41,184 nucleotides of DNA. Source: an uncultured Bacteroidota bacterium. Its GTDB lineage: Bacteria; Bacteroidota; Bacteroidia; JABEUT01. Shown in pieces: positions 301-36,112 of the stretch (position 1 is its first letter; every line of letters starts with the position of its first letter). The position numbers were made by a program, and so were the translations under genes. Where the stretch lies: positions 1 to 41,184 of the forward strand of contig CAIWVW010000035.1 of assembly GCA_903916255.1 (NCBI GenBank). Reading direction: 5' to 3'. Under the pieces are notes generated by a model. That model did no database searches, had not been told where the DNA came from, and saw nothing but the letters and a program-made list of their open reading frames with translations.

Positions 301-774
301 TTAATAATTATTCCAGTTTCCATATAAAATGGGTTTGAAATGAATCGTATCGAAAGGACCCTTGTATCGGGCTGTGTCACACCTTGTAATAGTTTTGAAA
401 AATGAGCTATCGGAAGGCGGGTTTGGAGGGGCGGTATACAGTACTTGAAACTGAGTGTTTAATTGTAATACAGGCTGAGGAATTGTAAAGTTAGGTGGAA
501 TAATTACTTTCATTCCGAAGTAATACGTGTAATTACTGTCAAATAAAAGTACAAACATAGTGTCTGTGCGAAGGTTAGCGCAACTGCTGTTGTAGTTTGA
601 AAAAGTGTTTTGCAAAGATTGGCCGCTTATGGCATGGGTAGGGTTTTGATAAATGCTCGAATTGGTATAATTCTGTAATTGAGCTCTGGTAAGAGGCTGC
701 GTTTGTGCTACACACACACTAAATTGCGAAGAAATAAAAGCGAGAAATATAAGAACAATTAATTTTTTACGCAT
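301..774 (-). CDS. Exported protein sharing the N-terminal domain of the 31874 fibre-like protein
   Basis: 157 aa. Residues 1-24 form a Sec signal peptide ending in VCVAQ. The mature part starts LTRAQLQNY and contains NPTHAISGQSLQN and a TDTMFVLLFD block. These align with SLSRAQMFNN, NPNHAITGQTLQN and SDTDFVSVFD at the N-terminus of the 807-aa protein at 31874. This one lacks the repeats and the C-terminal region, so it looks like a stand-alone attachment or adaptor domain. It is the only member of the palindromic-box regulon on the minus strand, and it sits at the left edge of the phage-like region while its paralogue sits near the right edge. I do not recognise a named family. Co-expression with particle genes suggests a surface or appendage role, which is inference. 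Confidence 0.75.
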   Translation of the reverse strand: MRKKLIVLIFLAFISSQFSVCVAQTQPLTRAQLQNYTNSSIYQNPTHAISGQSLQNTFSNYNSSCANLRTDTMFVLLFDSNYTYYFGMKVIIPPNFTIPQPVLQLNTQFQVLYTAPPNPPSDSSFFKTITRCDTARYKGPFDTIHFKPILYGNWNNY

Positions 775-837: not shown

Positions 838-882
838 CAAAGAAAAAAACAAATAAAGCGGTTTGGAAAATAGTCAATGACT
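838..882 (-). promoter_or_regulatory. Palindromic-box promoter A
   Basis: The box AGTCATTGACT (minus strand, 882-872) is followed by exactly 26 nt and then TTTCTTTG (845-838), a 7/8 match to TAnnTTTG. It drives the minus-strand gene whose ATG is at 774. The box centre would be near -43. This is the weakest -7 element of the nine, but the spacing is identical. Confidence 0.75.
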
Positions 883-12589: not shown

Positions 12590-13747
12590 ATGAAAAAGAT
12601 TGATACATCAGCTATAACTTCCGGTTCATGGATGCCCGTATTGGGAAATTACGGAGGCAACAACTTTGTGAATGGAAGCCCTTCGGGCAGCCTTGCAGGG
12701 CTTGATTTTTTGCAGCAGGCCTATTATGAATGCCTGAATGCTTTGTCGCAATTTATTGTGAACGACCAAACCCAACCCACCGTTATGTATATTGCGCCGC
12801 CTCCGCCTCCAAGCCCGGGGCCTTATCAGGTGGCAAATTTCGGCACACAGGGATTTATGAATTACCAGGGCGAGATTTATGCTTTTTCTTTTCCCAATGA
12901 AGTCGCTTTGCGCATAGGCGGAGGGCCGCAATACCAGAATGCGAATATTGTAACCACTTTCAGCGGGGCCGACCCCGTTACCTTCAGCGATTCATCCATT
13001 CATAATGTGCACCAGATAAGGCAAGTGCAGTTCAGCTGGAGCAGTACCCGCAATGCGGGCAATATTCCCGACTATGATTTATGGCTGAATGCCACCAACA
13101 ATTCCTATGCAAGTGTTTTGGCGCAAACTACTTTGAATAACTGGGTAACTGCTAACTATACTCCTTTTTTATCTGCCTACAATGCGAATGTAACTCCAAC
13201 GGTAATACAGGTGGGCGCAATGGGCGCTCCGGCCTTTCAAAACAGTTGGGGTAATTCTACAGGCATACCGCAGCATACGGGCAATTATCCAAGCCCGCTT
13301 TCGTATTGTATAATGTTTAACAGAGTATATATATGGGGCGAAATAACGAACAACAGCGTAACGGGCAACTCTACTATTTTCACGCTTCCTTCAGGTTATA
13401 CGCCATTGGCATACGAGGAAGTTTTTCAAGTTTGGAACACCGGTTTGCAACATGCTGTTGGCGGGAGCGATGTAACGCCTCCTTATTACCTGGTAATTAC
13501 AAGCGGAGGCGCTGTACAATTGCTTAGTCAAACAACTACGCCATTTAATGCCATCAGGAATATTACACTTTCGGGTATCAGTTTTGTGCAAGGCGTTCAT
13601 AGTTCTACCTTGGTTTCGGATTTCTATTCTACAGCTCTTACGGATGTTGCAACTCATACAGACACCTATACCACTTCGTTAACCGATTATTACTATTCCG
13701 GTGAAGAAATGGAAGATACAGAATCTGACGAACATCCATTGGGGTAA
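12590..13747 (+). CDS. Tail fibre / receptor-binding-like protein, paralogue 1
   Basis: 385 aa, no signal peptide. The N-terminus KKIDTSAITSGSWMPVLGNYGG..LDFLQQAYYECLNAL is shared with the next two genes and is probably the baseplate attachment domain. The middle carries FMNYQGEIYAFSFP, a helix after NAGNIPDYDLW, and NWVTANYTPFLSAYN. The distal part has SPLSYCIMFNRVYIWGEI..STIFTLPSGYTPLAYEEVFQV, a beta-sandwich-like tip pattern seen in many fibre tips. The C-terminus is acidic (EEMEDTESDE). It is fifth in the promoter D unit. The receptor-binding role is inferred from position downstream of the baseplate genes and from triplication. Confidence 0.6.
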   Translation: MKKIDTSAITSGSWMPVLGNYGGNNFVNGSPSGSLAGLDFLQQAYYECLNALSQFIVNDQTQPTVMYIAPPPPPSPGPYQVANFGTQGFMNYQGEIYAFSFPNEVALRIGGGPQYQNANIVTTFSGADPVTFSDSSIHNVHQIRQVQFSWSSTRNAGNIPDYDLWLNATNNSYASVLAQTTLNNWVTANYTPFLSAYNANVTPTVIQVGAMGAPAFQNSWGNSTGIPQHTGNYPSPLSYCIMFNRVYIWGEITNNSVTGNSTIFTLPSGYTPLAYEEVFQVWNTGLQHAVGGSDVTPPYYLVITSGGAVQLLSQTTTPFNAIRNITLSGISFVQGVHSSTLVSDFYSTALTDVATHTDTYTTSLTDYYYSGEEMEDTESDEHPLG

Positions 13748-13781
13748 TCAGTTTATACTATACTACATAATATTTATATAA

Positions 13782-14900
13782 ATGAAAATAATCGACACAT
13801 CAGCGGTAAATGAAAACAGTTGGCTCCCATTACTGGGAAACTACAACGGCGTAGTGGCTAATTCTTTTGTAAATGGGGGTTCGGCAAGTATGGTGGGCAT
13901 TGATTTTATCCAGCAGGCCTACACCGAATGCCTCAACGCGATAGCTGAATTTGCTATTCAGGACACTACCAAAATAACGGTGATGTATGGTTGCAATCAA
14001 TTTTTCACTCCGCCTACCTATGCCGTTTTCGATACGTATTACGAATCTGTTTACCGTGTTTCTACCCCTAATTCATACGGCATAAATCCGGGATGGGCAT
14101 ATTATAACGGAGAATTATTTTATGTGTCCGGCCTGGCATACACCGATCTTACAGGCCTGTACGTTAATGCAACTATAACTACCACTTATAGTACAGCTGA
14201 TGAAGCCTTGTTCAGTAATGCTGCATCGCACAATGTGCATACCATACGCACCATCGTTTTAAGCGCAAGCTCTTCAACACATGCAACTTCTTCCGGCACT
14301 ACGCTGCAGGATTACAGTTACTGGAAATTTGCAAGTAATAATTCCAATGCGCAAACCCCGATTTCAAATGTTATTAATAACTGGGTTACCAATACCTGGG
14401 ATATATTTACAGCCAATTATAATACTTTAACATCACCTCCCACCACAATAGTGGGCACCACGGGCAATCCGCAGTTTGAAAACGGCTGGGTGGCAAGCGG
14501 GCTTCTTACAACATATACAACCGACCTTAACCCGCTGTCTTATTTCAAACTATTTAACCGTGTTTATTTATGCGGTGAAATTCATCTGCCAACCGCTACC
14601 AGCGGGCCAACCAGTTCCACTATATTCCATTTGCCTCCGGGGTTCCATCCGCTTGCGGCGGAAGAAGTGTTTGCTGTTCCTGATATTACGGCATCTAATT
14701 ATACCGCCGGCGGAAACAACGTTGGAAACACCTGGTATATATGGATACAAAGTGATGGTTCTGTTACCTTTTTAGGAAATATACTAAGCACCGGCCCGCG
14801 CATTTCATTAAGCGGCATTAACTTTTTAAGCGGAGTTTATAAAGCGCCGGTGGAAGTATTGGCACCCGTAACTTATTTAACGGAATCATTTACCGAATAA
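13782..14900 (+). CDS. Tail fibre / receptor-binding-like protein, paralogue 2
   Basis: 372 aa. It has the same N-terminal block (KIIDTSAVNENSWLPLLGNYNG..IDFIQQAYTECLNAI), the same GWAYYNGELFYVSG motif as paralogue 3 and the same tip motif (NRVYLCGEI..STIFHLPPGFHPLAAEEVFAV). The central segment and C-terminus differ, so the copies appear to keep a common anchor while varying exposed parts. It begins 34 nt after paralogue 1. Confidence 0.6.
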   Translation: MKIIDTSAVNENSWLPLLGNYNGVVANSFVNGGSASMVGIDFIQQAYTECLNAIAEFAIQDTTKITVMYGCNQFFTPPTYAVFDTYYESVYRVSTPNSYGINPGWAYYNGELFYVSGLAYTDLTGLYVNATITTTYSTADEALFSNAASHNVHTIRTIVLSASSSTHATSSGTTLQDYSYWKFASNNSNAQTPISNVINNWVTNTWDIFTANYNTLTSPPTTIVGTTGNPQFENGWVASGLLTTYTTDLNPLSYFKLFNRVYLCGEIHLPTATSGPTSSTIFHLPPGFHPLAAEEVFAVPDITASNYTAGGNNVGNTWYIWIQSDGSVTFLGNILSTGPRISLSGINFLSGVYKAPVEVLAPVTYLTESFTE

Positions 14901-14915
14901 AGAGGCATAACATAT

Positions 14916-15917
14916 ATGAAAAAACTAGATACATCAGCCGTCACCAATATCTCCTGGATGCCTTTGCTGGCCAATAATCTGTCAGGCCCGGGAGGAATCG
15001 ATTTTTTACAGCAGGCTTATTCGGAATGCCTAACCGCGTTGGCCGGGTTTTTGGTGGCCGACCAAACCCTGGCAACCATTATGTATGGCTGTACCATTTC
15101 CGGCGGAACGGTTGCACCTGGCTGGGTCTTTTACCGCGGCGAACTTTTTTATGTACCGGGCGGTACGTATACTTTTCCGCCTTCCGATGCCTATTTGAAT
15201 GCTAGTATTTATCTGAACAACAGCCTTGCCGACCCTACTTATTTTAGCGACGGGGCATTGAATACTGTCCACATACAAAGGGAAATACATTTTAACCCCA
15301 GCGGAACTCCAAATGCCGGCAATTTACCTGACTATGGAAACTGGTGCACTATAGCTGCTAATTCCAGTGCTACGCCTGCCACTACAGCGGTTTTGAATAC
15401 ATGGCTTACATCTACCTACAATACATTTGTTGCAAACTATAATACCTGGGCGGCGGGCCTGTCGCCTGTTCCCGTGCAGGTGGGCACTCCCGGTGCGCCC
15501 TCTTTTCTGAATGGATGGGCCAACGATTCGGGTGTTATGAATGTTGGAACCCCAAGCCCGTTGAGTTTTTACAAAATACAAAACAGGGTTTATATATGGG
15601 GCGAAATAGTACATGCCGGAAATACGAATGCTTCCACTATATTTAATTTGCCTATGGGATATTATCCGGCGGCACAGGAAGAAGTGTTTAACGTGCCTGA
15701 TGTAGGAGCGCTCACATCTGCCGGTTCGGGCTATTCAGTTACCGTAAGGGCGCCCTTCTATACTATATGGATTACCGCGGGCGGCTCAGTTACCTTTTTG
15801 GGTGGAGGTACCGGAACCTTTTCTATTTCCCTTAGCGGAATAAACTTTTTGGCAGCACCCGATAACCTGCAACTGGTTATGGAGCTGGATTCGGAAGTGC
15901 AATCGCAGACGAGTTAG
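14916..15917 (+). CDS. Tail fibre / receptor-binding-like protein, paralogue 3
   Basis: 333 aa, the shortest of the three. The N-terminus is KKLDTSAVTNISWMPLLANNLSG..IDFLQQAYSECLTAL; the centre has GWVFYRGELFYVPGG; the tip has NRVYIWGEIVHAG..STIFNLPMGYYPAAQEEVFNV. The shared region between the N-terminal block and the GEL(F/Y) motif is shortened relative to copies 1 and 2. It is the last gene of the promoter D unit and ends 4 nt from the stop codon of a convergent host gene, so transcription probably stops within or after that gene. Confidence 0.6.
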   Translation: MKKLDTSAVTNISWMPLLANNLSGPGGIDFLQQAYSECLTALAGFLVADQTLATIMYGCTISGGTVAPGWVFYRGELFYVPGGTYTFPPSDAYLNASIYLNNSLADPTYFSDGALNTVHIQREIHFNPSGTPNAGNLPDYGNWCTIAANSSATPATTAVLNTWLTSTYNTFVANYNTWAAGLSPVPVQVGTPGAPSFLNGWANDSGVMNVGTPSPLSFYKIQNRVYIWGEIVHAGNTNASTIFNLPMGYYPAAQEEVFNVPDVGALTSAGSGYSVTVRAPFYTIWITAGGSVTFLGGGTGTFSISLSGINFLAAPDNLQLVMELDSEVQSQTS

Positions 15918-27678: not shown

Positions 27679-28995
27679 ATGGGAGCAAAAGACAGCACAA
27701 AGAGCAAAGAAACGAAGGTTCACTTACCTAAGCAGGATACCTTAGTTCCCGGTATTATAACTTTAAATGGCCCTAATGATATTGATAATGTTAAGTACGT
27801 TATACGTTCGTCGTTAGATAACCTGCGATTAGAATCAAAGAAAAAACTTTATGAGTTTATGAATCAGGGTGGGTTTAATCCCAAGGTGCCGTCTATTTCA
27901 TCGTCCTCCATAGGAACGGATAAATTCACAAACCCTTTTGTGTTTACAGATAGTACATTTGGAGTAGGGAATTACCCCGTTGCCAATTATGGAATTCCAT
28001 TGGGTAGCCAACTGCAACAACAGGCAAGACCTAAGCAGGCAACCCTGGTGGCAAAAAAAGATAATGGGAAGACGGATAGCGCTAATGATAAAGGAAAGGT
28101 ACCTGTGAAAAAGGCAAATGCAACCAATAAAGCTAAAGCAGCTAAGCCCATAAAGAAACCTGCTTCTTCCCAAAAAAAACCACCAGGTTTAGGAACTCCT
28201 GTAAATTTGGGTCAGTCAAATGATAAAATATGGGAATTTTCGGGAAGTAGTAAACCACCGGGAAATCCGGAAATGAATACTGCAAAGGCCTCAGAAATCC
28301 AAATAAACAGTGATGGGTGTTATATTTTATCAAATCAACAAGTTAAGGACATTTTTCCGAATGGTAAAAAAGCTACAATTAAGGATTTTACATCAGATTT
28401 AAATAAATATAGCGCAAAGTATGGCATTGAAAATAAGGAGGCGTTAGAACATTTTCTTGGACAAGTTGGTGGAGAAACGAGTGGCCTTGGCGGTTCCCTT
28501 ATTGAGGACATGGATTACAAAGAAGACCGCTTAAAGGTGGTATTTCCTAAATATTTTGCGAGCCGCAAAGATAAAAAGACTAAAACCATAAAACCACCAT
28601 TATATGACCCCAAAGAGTATGCTCATAATGCAGAAAAATTGGGCAATTTGGTTTATGCAAAACATGGTGGCTATAAATACAGGGGTAGGGGCATTATTCA
28701 ATTAACAGGGGAAAAGCAGTATAAAGATTTTTTCGATTATTACAATAAAACCTACAATGCACATTTGGATTATACATCCGAAACTGATTTGGATAAAGTA
28801 GGGAATGATATGAATATTGCTGTAATCAGCGGCCTTTGGTTTTATCAGAATAATGTATTGGATAGTGATATTGATATAAAGAACGCAAGTGTTGAAGACG
28901 TTACACAAATAGTAAATGGGGGACAAAACGGAATTAAAGAGAGAAGGCAATATTATAAAAAAGCGGTGGATGGGTTAACCTACCCAAGCCCATAA
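27679..28995 (+). CDS. GH19-type endolysin / tail lysin with long N-terminal extension
   Basis: 438 aa. Residues 1-170 are low-complexity and rich in Lys, Ala, Pro and Ser (linker). The catalytic GH19-like domain covers about 225-435: EHFLGQVGGETSG (predicted acid Glu266), AEKLGNLVYA, then YKYRGRGIIQLTG (334-344, the conserved GH19 lysin signature), and QIVNGGQNGIKERRQYYKKA near the end. It cleaves the glycan backbone of peptidoglycan (or chitin-like polymers). It has no signal peptide, so it acts either as a virion component delivered by the tail or after lysis. It is third in the promoter G unit behind two hub genes, which favours a tail-tip role. Confidence 0.82.
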   Translation: MGAKDSTKSKETKVHLPKQDTLVPGIITLNGPNDIDNVKYVIRSSLDNLRLESKKKLYEFMNQGGFNPKVPSISSSSIGTDKFTNPFVFTDSTFGVGNYPVANYGIPLGSQLQQQARPKQATLVAKKDNGKTDSANDKGKVPVKKANATNKAKAAKPIKKPASSQKKPPGLGTPVNLGQSNDKIWEFSGSSKPPGNPEMNTAKASEIQINSDGCYILSNQQVKDIFPNGKKATIKDFTSDLNKYSAKYGIENKEALEHFLGQVGGETSGLGGSLIEDMDYKEDRLKVVFPKYFASRKDKKTKTIKPPLYDPKEYAHNAEKLGNLVYAKHGGYKYRGRGIIQLTGEKQYKDFFDYYNKTYNAHLDYTSETDLDKVGNDMNIAVISGLWFYQNNVLDSDIDIKNASVEDVTQIVNGGQNGIKERRQYYKKAVDGLTYPSP

Positions 28996-29763: not shown

Positions 29764-30690
29764 ATGAGCGGTCTTAAAAAAGACATGGGTACCATTCAGC
29801 GGGCCATTCAAATGCTGGCTGGCACATACGATAAAGATAAGCTAGACTTTGAATTGGCTACCGTTACAGAGGTCGATACACAAAAATGGCAATGTACCGC
29901 GCAATTGATAAGCGGCACCAAACAAACCGTTTATTCGAATGTGCAACTTACAGCGGAAGTGGCAAGCAATGGTTTTGTGCAGGTTCCGAAGGTGGGTTCA
30001 AATGTTATTCTTGCTATAACATGGCGCAATGAAGTATATGTGTTTATGTGTTCGGAAATTGATGCGCTAGTATTTCATCAGGCCAATGATGATGACGGAA
30101 GTTCATTCGAAGAGTTTGTAATTTGCTGCAATTCCAATTTAAGTTTGCCATTGGGTATCCAGCTTATAGATGGCGGGGGCAATGGCATTGTAATTAATAG
30201 TGGAGGCGCCCAGAATATTTCCAATAGCCAGGGCAATAACGGAATAGTTGTTAGTAATGGAACCGCCGATATTTCTAATGACAGCAATGGTATTGTAATA
30301 ACGAACAGTGACAGTCCGCCATCCAACAGTTCCGATTCGATTTTGGTAAGTGCAAAAGACGGTATAGTGATAACCAATAGTAGCAGTCCTCCATCCAACA
30401 GCAGCAGTGGTTTATTAATAACCTGTAGCGGTACCATGCAGTTGAATGACGGCAGCTATGGCGGGTTGGTAAAAGTAATCAACTTAACTACCAAGTTGAA
30501 TAACCTTGAAAAGTTAGTAAATGACCTTTTGTCAGCATGGAATAATTTTGCCAACGTATATAAGCCAGGGAGCCCTTCAACAACAGGCTTACCGGCTGTT
30601 TTAACCGAATTAACAGATAATAGTTTAACATTGACTCAACAGAGCGATATAGAAAATACTGACATAAAGCACGGGGCTGCAGTTAGTTAA
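29764..30690 (+). CDS. Baseplate spike protein (gpV / gp5-like)
   Basis: 308 aa. Residues about 30-105 form the OB-fold domain of spike proteins (ELATVTEVDTQKWQCTAQLISG..VYSNVQLTAEVASNGFVQVPKVGSNVILAITWRNEVYVFMCSEI). Residues about 130-235 are repetitive NGIVI-N-S-type units, such as GNGIVINSGG, NNGIVVSNG and SNGIVITNSDSPPSNSS, expected to form an intertwined beta-helical needle. The C-terminal part is helical. The trimeric spike punctures the recipient outer membrane. The conserved part is the OB domain; no lysozyme domain is fused here, unlike T4 gp5, so cell-wall hydrolysis must come from the separate GH19 or GH73 proteins. Confidence 0.8.
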   Translation: MSGLKKDMGTIQRAIQMLAGTYDKDKLDFELATVTEVDTQKWQCTAQLISGTKQTVYSNVQLTAEVASNGFVQVPKVGSNVILAITWRNEVYVFMCSEIDALVFHQANDDDGSSFEEFVICCNSNLSLPLGIQLIDGGGNGIVINSGGAQNISNSQGNNGIVVSNGTADISNDSNGIVITNSDSPPSNSSDSILVSAKDGIVITNSSSPPSNSSSGLLITCSGTMQLNDGSYGGLVKVINLTTKLNNLEKLVNDLLSAWNNFANVYKPGSPSTTGLPAVLTELTDNSLTLTQQSDIENTDIKHGAAVS

Positions 30691-30710: not shown

Positions 30711-31163
30711 ATGAATTCCTATACAATTAAAGTACCGTCCGATATTTTTAGCCTTATAATGTCCGTATATGGAACACTGGAGCAAAGCGTTAAGCTAGTC
30801 TCTGATAACAACAGCCTGATACCTTCTTTCAATTCCGATATCAGCACATTGGCCGGAACAGTTGTTAGTTATGATACCACATTGGTTCAAACATCCTTGC
30901 CACCTGTTTCCGTATTGCCAACACCCAAAACTCCCGTTACCCAATATACCTGGACAGGCAGGGAAGGGCAGAATATATTTGATGTCTGCCTACAGACCTA
31001 CGGAATACTCGAAAATCAGGTTAAACTGATGATAAATAATAATGCGGATTTTACAACTACCGTTTATTCACAACCCTTCATCTACCAAAGCTCCTTGATA
31101 GCCAGCAGCACCACCTGGAACCGTACCACCGGTATGGGCGTGGTACTCAGTTCTGGAAATTAA
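30711..31163 (+). CDS. LysM-like tail-tip protein
   Basis: 150 aa. Residues about 85-112 read TGREGQNIFDVCLQTYGILENQVKLMINNN, a LysM pattern, and an N-terminal copy is suggested by SDIFSLIMSVYGTLEQSVKLVSDNN (about 10-34). A Pro/Thr linker joins the two. Small LysM proteins such as P2 gpX and T4 gp53 lie at the tail tip or baseplate and help stabilise it. It starts 20 nt after the spike gene and is the last gene of the promoter H unit. Confidence 0.65.
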   Translation: MNSYTIKVPSDIFSLIMSVYGTLEQSVKLVSDNNSLIPSFNSDISTLAGTVVSYDTTLVQTSLPPVSVLPTPKTPVTQYTWTGREGQNIFDVCLQTYGILENQVKLMINNNADFTTTVYSQPFIYQSSLIASSTTWNRTTGMGVVLSSGN

Positions 31164-31258: not shown

Positions 31259-31639
31259 CTATGTCAGTTCGAATTTTCCTCTTACCAGATAAACTTCCAG
31301 TAAATCCGCGCGTTTAACCTCCATTGGTTCAAATTTCTCATTTGCGCTTCGCAACAAATACATTGCTTTATCTGTCGGGTGCGGATGTATAAACTTTAAT
31401 AAGTAGCAATCCTCCATCACCACCAAATGAGGTTCACCAAAAGGCACATAATTGTGGTTATGAATTCGCTTGCAAACCACTATATCCCCATTGCAATATC
31501 GCGGATACATGCTGTGTCCGCTCACCCTTATGGCTACTTCGCAATCCGCAAAATGAGGGATCGTTTTAAAGTAGGACGTATCTTCCCATATTCCAGTTCC
31601 CAGCCTTCGGGCCAATGCCTCTATACTTAAATTAGTCAT
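31259..31639 (-). CDS. Stand-alone S24-type (LexA/CI C-terminal-like) peptidase domain
   Basis: 126 aa from ATG 31639, which has AGGAAG nine bases upstream; the longer frame to 31657 is less likely. It contains the S24 catalytic pair: Ser43 in RVSGHSMYP and Lys82 in CYLLKFIHP, with GDIVVCKR between them. Related repressors (LexA, lambda CI) have an N-terminal helix-turn-helix; here only about 35 residues precede the Ser, too few for a clear DNA-binding domain. It may be a self-cleaving regulatory partner or a relic of a repressor. It has a canonical promoter (TTG, 19 nt, TATTTTTG) and no palindromic box, and it lies immediately upstream of, and divergent from, box promoter I. Confidence 0.78.
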   Translation of the reverse strand: MTNLSIEALARRLGTGIWEDTSYFKTIPHFADCEVAIRVSGHSMYPRYCNGDIVVCKRIHNHNYVPFGEPHLVVMEDCYLLKFIHPHPTDKAMYLLRSANEKFEPMEVKRADLLEVYLVRGKFELT

Positions 31640-31696
31640 AATGCTTCCTTTTAACATCGATTAATTTTTTTACTCCACGCAGGTAGAGTACTTTCA

Positions 31697-31771: not shown

Positions 31772-31816
31772 AGTCATTGACTTTTATTTAAAGCACTTTC
31801 CCGCGCTCTAATTTTG
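31772..31816 (+). promoter_or_regulatory. Palindromic-box promoter I
   Basis: AGTCATTGACT (31772-31782), a 26-nt spacer, then TAATTTTG (31809-31816). It drives the fibre-like protein and the lysis genes to 36112. Confidence 0.92.
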
Positions 31817-31873: not shown

Positions 31874-34297
31874 ATGAAACAGCAAAAAATATTCACCAGG
31901 GTATCTTTATTTTGTTTTTTTTGTCTCGCACCTTGTTCTGTTTTTGCACAGAGTTTGAGCCGTGCGCAAATGTTCAATAACATTATTACCAATGTATACA
32001 CCAACCCCAACCATGCAATTACCGGCCAAACACTTCAAAATGTACTTTTAAATCAAAATTACTCGTATTATAACCTGAAATCAGATACCGATTTTGTTTC
32101 TGTTTTTGATACAGGCTTTACTTATTTGAAAGGTATGCCGGTATTGACAATTGGTGATTCCCTATATAGATGCGATGTTACAACTCATCATGGACCATGG
32201 AATAGTAATGATTTCCGCTTTGTTTTGCCTTTAGGTATTGGAGGTGGGGGGATTTCAGGAGGAGGTAATCCTCCTTTTATTCCAGTTTTTAATGGGCCGC
32301 ATTCATTAGGAGTCAGTCATATTTCAGATGGAAATGGGCAGCAATTGTTGTATGACTGGGCCTCAAATATTTCAGTAAACTGGCAAAAAAGGCTTTTATA
32401 TAATCACGGTTCTGTAGATTTTTTAGCATGGGGAAACGGTACCCACCCTTCCGTTACTAATGATATTATAAGCAAAGGATATGCAGATTCCGTATACACC
32501 CCAAGGATAACGGGTAATGGCTCTAACCCATACATTCCGGTTTTTTCTTCTGGTAATGTGCTCGGAAACAGTCATATAATTGATGGTGGAGGAATACAAC
32601 GGATGATGGACAGTTCTTCGAATGTTGCAGTTGATTGGAATAACAGACAATTGTATAATAATGGTGGTTCGGGTTATTTAACTTGGGGTAATGGTACTGC
32701 CCCTTCCTCGCCAACGGATATTATTAGCAAAGGATATGCGGATATTACTTACACAGGAGGAACTTCAAGTGCGGGAAGCGCACCGCATCTTGCAGTATTC
32801 ACTGCTACCAGTGCATTAGGTAACAGCCATATAATTGATGGAGGCGGGAGTCAGCAAATGCTTGATAATTCATCTGCTATTTCTCTTGATTGGCTAAACC
32901 GGAACTTATATTCCAACGGAGCCACTTCTTATTTAACCTGGGGAAATGGCACCACACCTTCAGCGCCAACCGATATAATAAGCAAAGGCTATGCTGATGC
33001 AACATACACAGCAGGTGTTACCAGCACCGGTGGTTCGCCCTACGTTACTGTTTTTACGGGAGCCAATACTGTAGGCAACAGCCATATAATTGATGGAGGC
33101 GGGAGTCAGCAAATGTTTGATAATTCATCCACTCTTTCTCTTGATTGGTTAAACCGGAATTTATATTCAAACGGAGCAACTACCTATCTAACATGGGGAA
33201 ACGGTACAGCACCCTCGGCCCCAACAGATATAATAAGCAAAGGTTATGCCGATGCTACATACACAGGTGGAGGAAGAATCTCCAGCACAGGCAGTGCAAC
33301 GTATGTGCCTGTTTTTACCGCCAGCAATGCTGTTGGTAACAGTCATATAATTGATGGGGGAGGAGCCCAGCAAATGCTTGATAATTCTTCGAGTATATCT
33401 GTAGATTGGTTAAACAGAAGTTTGTTCAGCACGGGCGCAGTTGCCAGGTTAACTTGGGGTAATGGGCTCAATCCGGCTGCAGTTTCGGATATTATTACCA
33501 AAGGATATGCAGATGCAACCTATATAACCCTTTTAGGCAGCACCGGTGGTTATCATGGGCCTTTAAGGCCTGTAAGCTCAGCGGAAACCTGGTTAGGTGG
33601 GTATGCAGGTGGCACAGGTGTGTCCACTGACAATACTACGTTCATTGGAATACATACTGGTGATGGCGCTATAGCAGCACACCGCAGTACATTTTTAGGT
33701 GCTTATGCAGGATATCAGGCTCCGGGCGCCTGGAATGCGGTTTTTATAGGTGATAGTGCCGGATGCCAGGATAGGTTAGCTGCAACCAGCGGATGGTCAA
33801 TATTAATTGGCCCAAAAACTAGCACCGGCGGATTTGATAATAGTATTGTGCTGGGAGGAAATACTGCCAACACAGCCCCTAATCAACTATACATTGCCGA
33901 TAATATTAACAACTTCCACCTGGCGGGAAATACATATAAGGTCCCTCAAATAGGTGGTACGCTGGCATTAGCTAATTACCATTTTGATATTCCTATGGTA
34001 ACAAATTACAGGATTCCTGTCAGCGATTTTGACGGACAAACTGTAGTAGAAGTTATTGGCGGCCCTACTGCATATGCTCTTATGCCCAGCCCTGCAAGCG
34101 TTGTCAGAGGTATTCCTGTAATTATTAAAGCTACAGGAACCCCTGCAACCACCACATTAAACGTATTGCCATTTGGTACAGAAATGATTGATAACAACCC
34201 TGCAGGATTACTTATTACAATGTCTACCGCACAATCTCCGCAACCATGCATAAAAATATTAACTCCCGATAACATTAACTGGATAACAATTCCATAA
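31874..34297 (+). CDS. Exported tail-fibre-like protein with five long repeats
   Basis: 807 aa. It has a clear Sec signal peptide (residues 1-26, ending CSVFAQ), unusual for a virion fibre. Residues 27-100 match the 157-aa protein at 301-774. About 135-560 hold five repeats of 83-87 aa, each with GNSHIIDGGG.QQM.DNSS..S.DWLNR.LYSNG....LTWGNGT.PS.PTDIISKGYADATYT. Copies 3 and 4 are very similar at DNA level. The rest (560-807) is beta-rich with GGYAGGTGVSTDNTTFIGIHTGDGA, AHRSTFLGAYAGYQAPG and LYIADNINNFHLAG, typical of fibre shafts and tips; no S74 autocleavage domain is evident. It is the first gene under promoter I, ahead of the lysis genes. Confidence 0.78.
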   Translation: MKQQKIFTRVSLFCFFCLAPCSVFAQSLSRAQMFNNIITNVYTNPNHAITGQTLQNVLLNQNYSYYNLKSDTDFVSVFDTGFTYLKGMPVLTIGDSLYRCDVTTHHGPWNSNDFRFVLPLGIGGGGISGGGNPPFIPVFNGPHSLGVSHISDGNGQQLLYDWASNISVNWQKRLLYNHGSVDFLAWGNGTHPSVTNDIISKGYADSVYTPRITGNGSNPYIPVFSSGNVLGNSHIIDGGGIQRMMDSSSNVAVDWNNRQLYNNGGSGYLTWGNGTAPSSPTDIISKGYADITYTGGTSSAGSAPHLAVFTATSALGNSHIIDGGGSQQMLDNSSAISLDWLNRNLYSNGATSYLTWGNGTTPSAPTDIISKGYADATYTAGVTSTGGSPYVTVFTGANTVGNSHIIDGGGSQQMFDNSSTLSLDWLNRNLYSNGATTYLTWGNGTAPSAPTDIISKGYADATYTGGGRISSTGSATYVPVFTASNAVGNSHIIDGGGAQQMLDNSSSISVDWLNRSLFSTGAVARLTWGNGLNPAAVSDIITKGYADATYITLLGSTGGYHGPLRPVSSAETWLGGYAGGTGVSTDNTTFIGIHTGDGAIAAHRSTFLGAYAGYQAPGAWNAVFIGDSAGCQDRLAATSGWSILIGPKTSTGGFDNSIVLGGNTANTAPNQLYIADNINNFHLAGNTYKVPQIGGTLALANYHFDIPMVTNYRIPVSDFDGQTVVEVIGGPTAYALMPSPASVVRGIPVIIKATGTPATTTLNVLPFGTEMIDNNPAGLLITMSTAQSPQPCIKILTPDNINWITIP
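32265..33547 (+). repeat. Five in-frame tandem repeats (about 250-260 bp each)
   Basis: Units start at about 32265, 32520, 32771, 33029 and 33290. A run beginning AACAGCCATATAATTGATGG is identical in the third and fourth copies over almost 40 nt, showing recent duplication or gene conversion. Confidence 0.8.
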
Positions 34298-34340: not shown

Positions 34341-34652
34341 ATGGACGAAGAACTCCGCAACGCACTAAACACGCAAAATGCAAAGCTCGACAGAATAAGC
34401 CAAGCTCTCTATGGGTCCGAGGCCGATTCATCCACTCCAAATAAAATTATTGGAAAAGGCCTTATAGAAGTAGTTACAGAACATGAAGCCGAAATACAAT
34501 CATTCAAAGATTTTAAAAGCAAAGGGAAATTGCTCTGGAAATTCACCATTGCAGGTCTTACCATATTTGGTTATGCCTTTGGTAAAGGCCTTGAGCACCT
34601 TGTTTTGCACATAGAGCATCTTGTTTTTATTTTCAGTCAACATAGTCATTAA
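34341..34652 (+). CDS. Small membrane protein, holin/XhlA-like candidate
   Basis: 103 aa. The N-terminus is a charged helix (DEELRNALNTQNAKLDRISQAL). One membrane segment lies at about 74-92 (KFTIAGLTIFGYAFGKGL), followed by a His-rich tail. A coiled-coil start with one C-terminal membrane helix is the pattern of haemolysin XhlA-type and T7-like holins. It lies between the fibre gene and the GH108 endolysin, 33 nt upstream of the latter, so a holin role is reasonable but not certain. Confidence 0.55.
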   Translation: MDEELRNALNTQNAKLDRISQALYGSEADSSTPNKIIGKGLIEVVTEHEAEIQSFKDFKSKGKLLWKFTIAGLTIFGYAFGKGLEHLVLHIEHLVFIFSQHSH

Positions 34653-34684: not shown

Positions 34685-35248
34685 ATGTCAGATTGTAAAC
34701 TTTTAGCCCCGTTTATACTTGCCGCCGAAGGCGGTTATGTAAATAATCCTTCCGATAAAGGCGGAGAAACAAACAAAGGTATCACATGGCCGGTATGGGT
34801 CTCCTACAATGGCGATTCAAGCGGAAGCCACAACCGGTTTATCATAATGATGACAGACGACTGGGCAAAAATATTTAAAACCGGTTATTGGGACAAATGC
34901 CTCGCCGACCAAATTACCGACCAGCGCATAGCCAATACCATAGCCGATTGGGTATGGAGCAGCGGACAGCATTATCCTGAATTGGATGTGCAAAAATTAA
35001 TCAATACTATTTTTAATAAGCACCTGACGGAAGACGGCGTATTTGGCCCCGCAACTATCGAGGAGATTAATGCTGCTGACCAGGCCGAGCTTTACAATTC
35101 CCTTATCGAGCGCCGCCAACAATACTATAAAGATATAGTAGCATTGGCACAGGCAAATGGCGACCATAGCCAGGATGGCTTCCTTACAGGTTGGTTGAAC
35201 CGCATTAATAATCTGGTGAAATATAATGAGCAATTTAATAAAGTATAG
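34685..35248 (+). CDS. GH108 N-acetylmuramidase endolysin
   Basis: 187 aa. The N-terminal GH108 domain starts with FILAAEGGYVNNPSDKGGETNKGIT, holding the conserved EGGY motif with catalytic Glu15 and the DKGGxTNxGIT signature. The C-terminal part (VQKLINTIF..DGVFGPATIEEINAAD) is a PG-binding_3 domain. It cleaves the N-acetylmuramic acid to N-acetylglucosamine bond of peptidoglycan. With no signal peptide it needs a holin for export. It is flanked by small membrane proteins and a spanin candidate, making it the lysis enzyme of the set, distinct from the GH19 and GH73 proteins in tail units. Confidence 0.88.
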   Translation: MSDCKLLAPFILAAEGGYVNNPSDKGGETNKGITWPVWVSYNGDSSGSHNRFIIMMTDDWAKIFKTGYWDKCLADQITDQRIANTIADWVWSSGQHYPELDVQKLINTIFNKHLTEDGVFGPATIEEINAADQAELYNSLIERRQQYYKDIVALAQANGDHSQDGFLTGWLNRINNLVKYNEQFNKV

Positions 35249-35327: not shown

Positions 35328-35594
35328 ATGAACCAAACAATCTGGACTATTTTAAAAGGCAGCCTGCTCGAAGGTGAGAAGGGCTCGGGCAAAGCCATGT
35401 GTGCATTTGCATCAATGCTGATAATTCTTTTTATGTGCATTTATTCCACCATTAAAAATACGCCAATCGACCTGGCTGTTATTCTGGAGCTGATAGGCTT
35501 TATTCTTACCCTTTACGGTATAAAAGGATGGACGGCTGTAAAGCTAAGCAAGAATGGCAGCAGCAGCGTCAGCTCAAATCCGGATGACAAATGA
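35328..35594 (+). CDS. Two-helix membrane protein, holin candidate
   Basis: 88 aa. Two hydrophobic segments, about 23-40 (AMCAFASMLIILFMCIYS) and 47-66 (DLAVILELIGFILTLYGI), joined by a short loop, then a basic and polar tail. This is the class II holin plan. It lies between the GH108 endolysin and the spanin candidate, and its stop overlaps the next start as ATGA, indicating coupled translation. Confidence 0.65.
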   Translation: MNQTIWTILKGSLLEGEKGSGKAMCAFASMLIILFMCIYSTIKNTPIDLAVILELIGFILTLYGIKGWTAVKLSKNGSSSVSSNPDDK

Positions 35595-36112
35595 AAAAAC
35601 TATTATTCACGTTTTCACTTTTCAGTTTTACCTTTTCACTCTTTATTGGTTGCACCCCCCAGCAAAAACTTCAGCATTTGGAAAACAACCATCCGGAATT
35701 ATTTAAACCAACAGTAAAGGATAGTATTTCGAATATGGTGCAATATGTAACGCACGACAGTATTATAGATATTCCAGGGCAATCGGTTGTGTTGTATGAT
35801 ACTTTCCTGGTTAATAAACCTTGCCCAACGCATTTTCATAAAGTACTGAAAACGGGTAATGAAACCGCTACGTTGAATATCGATTCCGGCCGGATAACGG
35901 TTACTTGCCATGACGACAGCCTGAAAAAAGAAATTGCAGTTCGCGATAAAATAATCAGTTCTTTTAAAGAGCATATTCAGGTTGGCGTTGCCGAACACGA
36001 TGTGTACTTAACCCACTGGTACGATTATTTCTGCCGCACAATAGTTGCGATATCACTCTTGTTTCTATTAATTTGGGTTTTGCTTCATTCATTCAAGTTT
36101 CCACTGCCATAA
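35591..36112 (+). CDS. Unimolecular spanin candidate (lipoprotein plus C-terminal membrane helix)
   Basis: 173 aa. A lipoprotein signal ends at Cys21 (SLFIGC). The periplasmic domain spans about 22-145. A strong C-terminal membrane helix follows at about 150-167 (TIVAISLLFLLIWVLLHS). One chain anchored by lipid in the outer membrane and by a helix in the inner membrane is the plan of u-spanins such as T1 gp11, which fuse the two membranes in the last step of Gram-negative lysis. It overlaps the holin candidate by ATGA and is the last gene of the promoter I unit. Confidence 0.72.
   Translation: MKKLLFTFSLFSFTFSLFIGCTPQQKLQHLENNHPELFKPTVKDSISNMVQYVTHDSIIDIPGQSVVLYDTFLVNKPCPTHFHKVLKTGNETATLNIDSGRITVTCHDDSLKKEIAVRDKIISSFKEHIQVGVAEHDVYLTHWYDYFCRTIVAISLLFLLIWVLLHSFKFPLP

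Follow-up and report, generated by a model that had tools for sequence, protein, structure and literature searches.

Predicted Sec-exported fibre and a separately encoded paralogue of its N-terminal domain in a dispersed phage-derived particle system of a Bacteroidota bacterium

Related phages and particles

In textbook tailed-phage assembly, fibres are put on the particles in the cytoplasm. Proteins of the Cellulophaga phages phi18:3, phi10:1 and phiSM (PHROGs 17619, 21199 and 16053) resemble the fibre described here in that they are large, repetitive and of fibre type, are encoded at a tail/fibre position and carry Q-rule signal peptides. Under the Bacteroidetes Q-rule, cleavage by signal peptidase I leaves an N-terminal glutamine, which is then converted to pyroglutamate (PMC5837995; PMC10653852). 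The Cellulophaga phages differ in being lytic and not a dispersed cell-encoded cluster. Their proteins have other N-terminal domains, and no stand-alone copy of an N-terminal domain was seen in them.

Phages of Porphyromonas gingivalis also have signal-peptide genes that expose an N-terminal Gln, as well as signal peptides on capsid proteins (PMC10367356). There, however, the Q-rule proteins are encoded by genes of unknown function that were read as possible modifiers of the outer membrane, with no tie to fibres or to virion proteomics. The same study suggested that the prohead protease cuts off the signal-peptide-like N-termini of the capsid proteins.

The Winoviridae (Flavobacterium phages lotta8-1 and FPSV-S1, Winogradskyella phage Peternella_1) share with the present system a contractile Mu-type module, the common parts of which are a portal (PF06074), a gp36-type adaptor, a ClpP protease and a DUF2586 sheath. 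Unlike the present system, they have compact phage genomes and not a dispersed cluster with box promoters, and their fibre genes lack signal peptides. The gene transfer agent RcGTA is similar in another respect: its particle genes occupy several chromosomal loci under shared control, with the terminase at a separate locus. It derives from a different phage ancestor and is found in another phylum, and RcGTA fibres are not known to be exported.

In the literature searched, which mostly excluded subscription journals, Q-rule signal peptides are not linked to virion fibres and exported virion fibres are nowhere described as a general trait; this is weak evidence of novelty.

The particle module of the window

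The window, meaning the whole stretch of DNA analysed, corresponds to the whole of contig C35 (41184 bp) in a Bacteroidota genome that comprises 149 contigs and 3.74 Mb. Host genes are interspersed here among those of a phage-derived contractile module, which consists of a Mu-type portal (PF06074), a gp36-type adaptor, a ClpP/Mu-I protease, a DUF2586 sheath, a tube, baseplate components and a GH108 lysin.

Two loci are of main concern. A 157-aa protein is encoded on the minus strand at 301-774, and an 807-aa fibre-like protein on the plus strand at 31874-34297. The latter consists of an N-terminal domain, about five repeats of about 85 aa, FIG-type repeats and a fibre-like C-terminus. Upstream of it lie a gene for a baseplate spike-type protein (29764-30690, plus), assigned by sequence and by synteny with IMG/VR contigs, with a weak match to phrog_27270, and, directly before the fibre gene, a 150-aa small tail/LysM-type gene (30711-31163, plus), assigned by the same synteny and by motif. 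Downstream are a 103-aa membrane protein that is probably holin-like, judging from position and a hydrophobic segment (34341-34652, plus), a GH108 endolysin (34685-35248, plus; PF05838 E=2e-20, PF09374) and a 173-aa predicted lipoprotein with a lipobox, which may be spanin-like (35591-36112, plus). The locus order is thus spike, small tail gene, fibre, holin-like gene, GH108 lysin and lipoprotein, and the 807-aa gene lies where a tail fibre gene is expected, between spike/tail and lysis genes. A 132-aa protein with an S24/LexA-type peptidase domain and no obvious DNA-binding domain (31259-31657) is encoded divergently to the fibre gene and adjoins its box promoter.

Three fibre-like paralogues lacking signal peptides are encoded in tandem on the plus strand, adjoining the baseplate genes. 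The first (12590-13747) matches phrog_5339, a virion structural protein family (E=5e-6), and the second (13782-14900) and third (14916-15917) are similar to their neighbours. A single counterpart is found in G007 and in the conventional prophage G368 of the same class. These cytosolic paralogues (12590-15917) could be the real particle fibres, which counts against the 807-aa protein in that role, and they show that the particle may have fibres of different kinds.

Signal peptides and predicted export

The N-terminus of each protein combines a positive n-region and a hydrophobic core with small residues ahead of the cleavage site, as expected of substrates of Q-rule signal peptidase I. The signal peptides, MRKKLIVLIFLAFISSQFSVCVA in the 157-aa protein and MKQQKIFTRVSLFCFFCLAPCSVFA in the 807-aa protein, give clear scores with a home-made predictor and are followed in both cases by Gln at +1. 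Predicted cleavage is at SVCVA/QTQPL in the former (signal peptide 706-774, minus; rule from PMC5837995) and at SVFA/QSLSR in the latter (31874-31948, plus). The Sec signal peptides that the original prediction assigned to the two proteins are thus borne out, and both proteins are very probably exported, judging from their N-termini. Because the predictor yields false negatives as well as false positives (e.g., a tail-tube protein starting MANPLINGVNYSW), the counts for fibre genes given below were redone with a separate rule of a small residue followed by Gln, together with reading by eye.

The T9SS C-terminal sorting domain (PF18962/TIGR04183) is absent from both proteins and is present in three other exported proteins of the window, which serve as positive controls. 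Neither protein has a lipobox, the residue predicted at +1 being Gln and not Cys. As there is neither a T9SS domain nor a lipobox, nothing marks the two proteins for the cell surface, and by the usual rules they are expected to remain in the periplasm.

Relationship of the two proteins

Residues 21-150 of the 157-aa protein align with residues 21-118 of the 807-aa protein over 130 columns at 33% identity (BLASTP E=1e-18), which confirms the paralogy proposed earlier. An alignment of the mature parts only, with signal peptides removed, has a score of 166, whereas the highest score among 2000 shuffles was 63. The common domain begins right behind the signal peptide; in the 807-aa protein it reaches to about residue 120 and is encoded at 31952-32227 (plus). 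The 157-aa and 807-aa copies differ by a dN of 0.48 and synonymous sites are saturated; the divergence thus took place under constraint at the protein level.

Profile searches assigned the 157-aa protein to no Pfam, PHROG or NCBIfam family and gave no match to a fibre family. It has a single domain, and its earlier description as a fibre-domain protein is retained on the homology to the 807-aa N-terminus only. Searches of 119 and of 395 genomes detected the N-terminal domain in no other genome, nor was an orthologue of the 157-aa protein present in 11 genomes of the genus or 395 of the class. Scans of viral contigs with the N-terminal domain and with the 807-aa protein returned no relatives, and a sequence search of the PDB gave no match. 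Weak matches to the domain in G002:C74, G026, G046 and C55 were rejected as out of frame or limited to the signal peptide, and others among the 395 genomes (E about 0.007-0.01) were short or broken. The AlphaFold2 model of the 157-aa protein has a pLDDT of 35.

The lack of any family match or orthologue and the presence of the N-terminal domain only are what would be expected if the 157-aa gene were a functionless relic, left by truncation of a further fibre gene and preserved only through its box promoter. This is the foremost of the alternatives considered here but still an unlikely one, as the open reading frame is intact, with a signal peptide and a perfect box, and has diverged from the 807-aa copy under constraint. 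The protein also shows an insertion and extra residues, which is not a pattern of simple loss. In the reading preferred here, the 157-aa protein represents the N-terminal domain of the fibre, exported as a protein of its own. It would most likely work with the fibre at the fibre base, as a partner or a short fibre, but its gene may instead be a second fibre gene that has become shorter.

Box promoters and extent of the regulon

The box promoter has the form AGTCAWTGACTNT-N28-TTTG, with identical spacing in all nine perfect copies of the window. Eleven perfect copies are present in the genome, compared with about 0.007 expected genome-wide from base composition; a reversed-pattern control gave none at up to one mismatch. 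Each of the two genes has a box, as had been noted before, and both copies are perfect: AGTCATTGACTAT-N28-TTTG at 838-882 (minus) for the 157-aa gene and AGTCATTGACTTT-N28-TTTG at 31772-31816 (plus) for the 807-aa gene, which is the first gene of an operon that runs into the lysis genes.

Boxes with at most one mismatch are found on other contigs. One (C118, locus L056; one mismatch) is upstream of a large terminase (Terminase_3, PF04466 E=7e-39) and a DUF5681-type protein, and those on C132 (L058) and C4 (L053) are upstream of terminase-small-like proteins. Others precede a paralogue of the window gene at 27679-28995 together with a peptidase-like gene (C37, L054), a small XRE regulator (C101, L055) and a 219-aa exported protein that matches no Pfam family (C34, L051), and one is near an FtsK gene (C125, L052). 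With boxes on several contigs, the genes for structure and packaging are dispersed but co-regulated, as they are in a gene transfer agent. The original prediction had placed the 157-aa and 807-aa genes at both ends of the regulon. This does not hold, since boxes extend to other contigs, including that of the large terminase, and the operon of the 807-aa gene itself continues to about 36112.

A second genome of the same genus (G002, 98% complete) has 32 boxes spread over the genome and no sheath match, so the box is not diagnostic of particle genes. The G002 boxes (L211-L242) have a longer consensus, GTCAWTGACTTTT-AAA-CACTTTTT-TG-TAT-TTTG, and many of them lie ahead of genes for terminase-small-like or DUF5681-like proteins, or of repeated sequences without a clear gene.

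Exported fibres in related phages

Relatives of the sheath were collected from IMG/VR (80 contigs, 35-44% identity), and the fibre slot was defined as the gene behind the spike and small tail genes and ahead of the lysis genes. A Q-rule signal peptide is present on the fibre-slot gene in 14 of 23 nonredundant loci. Most other slot proteins of this set start straight with a cytosolic fibre domain, KISxLPxxTG, and in one locus (L114) a signal peptide is fused to the KISxLP fibre domain. The G368 prophage has an exported fibre in the same arrangement, and PAU gp257, the nearest homologue of the 807-aa protein in an isolated phage, has a signal peptide. An ordinary siphovirus-like prophage of the same genus with no box nearby (G002:C85) encodes a 378-aa exported fibre that matches the 807-aa protein in its C-terminal part (32% identity, E=2e-15). 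The control fibres Mu S, S' and P2 H have no signal peptide by the predictor, nor do the fibres of lotta8-1, FPSV-S1, Peternella_1 and B40-8; in view of these last four, exported fibres are common but not universal. Their presence on many Bacteroidota phage contigs and in the boxless prophage indicates that fibre export is not tied to the box regulon. It had been argued that export is unexpected for fibres, which the 14 of 23 loci and the prophage of the same genus contradict.

Other signal-peptide-like sequences are found among the structural genes of relatives. Major capsid proteins of a subgroup have a hydrophobic, signal-peptide-like N-terminal extension; it is present in G368 (L086/L087), L121, L132, L136, L152, L166, L169 (20810-21892), L170 (11142-12239) and L171 (22360-23367), and the subgroup includes lotta8-1 (annotated as structural protein), FPSV-S1 and Peternella_1. 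The capsid protein of the window lacks it. A small exported protein (~143 aa, ...AQSTTPRxGTGANNDNTxRxLT...) is encoded between the capsid and sheath genes in 26 of 48 nonredundant IMG/VR loci, always with a small residue followed by Gln (e.g., L085 6870-7319, L086 18637-19587). It is absent from the window. An unrelated prophage encodes a protein similar in kind close to its head genes (L244 10846-11241).

Since capsid proteins of some relatives have such N-termini, and since those of the Porphyromonas phages were suggested to be cut off by the prohead protease, signal-peptide-like sequences need not mean export. The N-termini of the fibres might accordingly be retained and aid particle assembly or membrane docking in the cytoplasm, as the capsid proteins of some relatives would suggest. 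We regard this as the least probable of the readings weighed here. A small residue followed by Gln is found at the predicted cut in 14 of 14 slot proteins, Gln being itself part of the test, and among the slot proteins listed none was seen that bears a signal peptide without this motif. The capsid N-termini, by comparison, carry an extra hydrophobic segment and lack a uniform motif of this kind, and a signal-peptidase site would serve no purpose in a segment that stays uncut. Export of the 807-aa protein is the preferred reading.

Evidence from virion proteomics

GenBank notes for the Cellulophaga phages state that certain proteins were annotated from experimental MS/MS proteomics. Eight of these virion proteins have Q-rule signal peptides (phi18:3 gp085-087, phi10:1 gp091-094 and phiSM gp08), though the eight are not independent cases, as some are homologous to each other, and the MS/MS detection is silent on signal-peptide removal and allows for carry-over of vesicles. 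Two of them, phi18:3 gp085 (E=1.7e-273) and phi10:1 gp092 (E=2.5e-112), define phrog_17619, the family that the 807-aa protein matches in a profile search (E=1.2e-11) over four short stretches. Direct pairwise BLAST of the 807-aa protein with gp085 and gp092 was not significant. As the match consists of short repeat stretches and the pairwise comparison is negative, it represents shared fibre modules and not orthology. By the Cellulophaga precedent, the best reading is that the 807-aa protein is part of the particle.

The opposite had been proposed, namely that an exported protein would not be a virion fibre and that both proteins may sit on the surface of the producer or recipient, for example as receptor, shield or attachment sites, when particles are made. 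A decoy role is counted here with this reading. Its premises of export and of promoters shared with the particle genes are sound, since export is likely and would be timed with these genes, and the Q-rule proteins of the Porphyromonas phages were interpreted in a comparable way. A surface role is nonetheless improbable. Three neighbouring exported proteins carry T9SS domains and these two do not, nor do they have a lipobox. Signal-peptide-bearing proteins of the same fibre-type architecture are on record from MS/MS as virion components of three phages, two of them in the same PHROG. In addition, the 807-aa gene occupies the fibre slot, and an ordinary prophage without a box also has an exported fibre. 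Exported receptor blockers are used by other phages, which was counted in favour of the surface role.

A possible reason for export

Fibres might be exported so that a periplasmic O-glycosylation system can decorate them. In 17 exported IMG/VR fibre-slot proteins the motif D[ST][AILMTV] occurs 221 times where 65 are expected, a 3.4-fold enrichment that follows the exact pattern of D, S/T and A/I/L/V/T, and it is at the expected level (1.0-fold; 15 seen, 15 expected) in eight non-exported ones. Exported proteins of the host are enriched 2.5-fold (31 seen, 12 expected), and the 157-aa protein has three motifs against 0.3 expected. The 807-aa protein, however, is not enriched (3 against 3.3), nor are the fibres of G368, PAU and G002, and the MS/MS-verified Cellulophaga virion proteins are depleted (8 against 20). 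Exported proteins may also have a like composition for other reasons. The enrichment in slot proteins agrees with real export but is not general. O-glycosylation is thus demoted as the general cause of export, because neither the 807-aa protein nor the verified Cellulophaga proteins are enriched, and we consider it quite improbable in that role.

Proposed role of the two proteins

The explanation favoured here, with somewhat better than even confidence as a whole, is that the 807-aa protein is a Sec-exported fibre that docks at lysis and the 157-aa protein an exported copy of its N-terminal domain. The former would serve as tail fibre, or as a fibre equivalent to it, on a contractile particle that is derived from a phage and encoded at dispersed loci, and would be made as a Sec/signal-peptidase-I pre-protein under the Q-rule, like many Bacteroidota phage fibres. 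Particles would be assembled in the cytoplasm, whereas the fibre would be exported to the periplasm and cleaved there, and the two would come together once the inner membrane is opened by the lysis genes that share the fibre operon. The 157-aa gene has the same type of promoter.

A broader hypothesis is put forward more tentatively. Bacteroidota phages and particles may build their fibres from the outside in, that is, Sec-exported, cut by signal peptidase, capped with pyroglutamate and docked only at lysis, with O-glycosylation in the periplasm added in some lineages. The window would represent a domesticated example in which the anchor domain of the fibre is also made separately.

Biological significance

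Fibre export is widespread among the phages of Bacteroidota, and virion evidence for it is on record. What appeared to be an oddity of the window would then be an instance of a trait of the phylum. Virion fibres that bear signal peptides and are detected by MS/MS either contradict the cytoplasmic route of assembly or demand a late docking step, and they raise the question of how an exported protein reaches particles assembled in the cytoplasm. The annotation of Bacteroidota phages is also affected, as many particle parts would be called secreted or membrane-modifying proteins.
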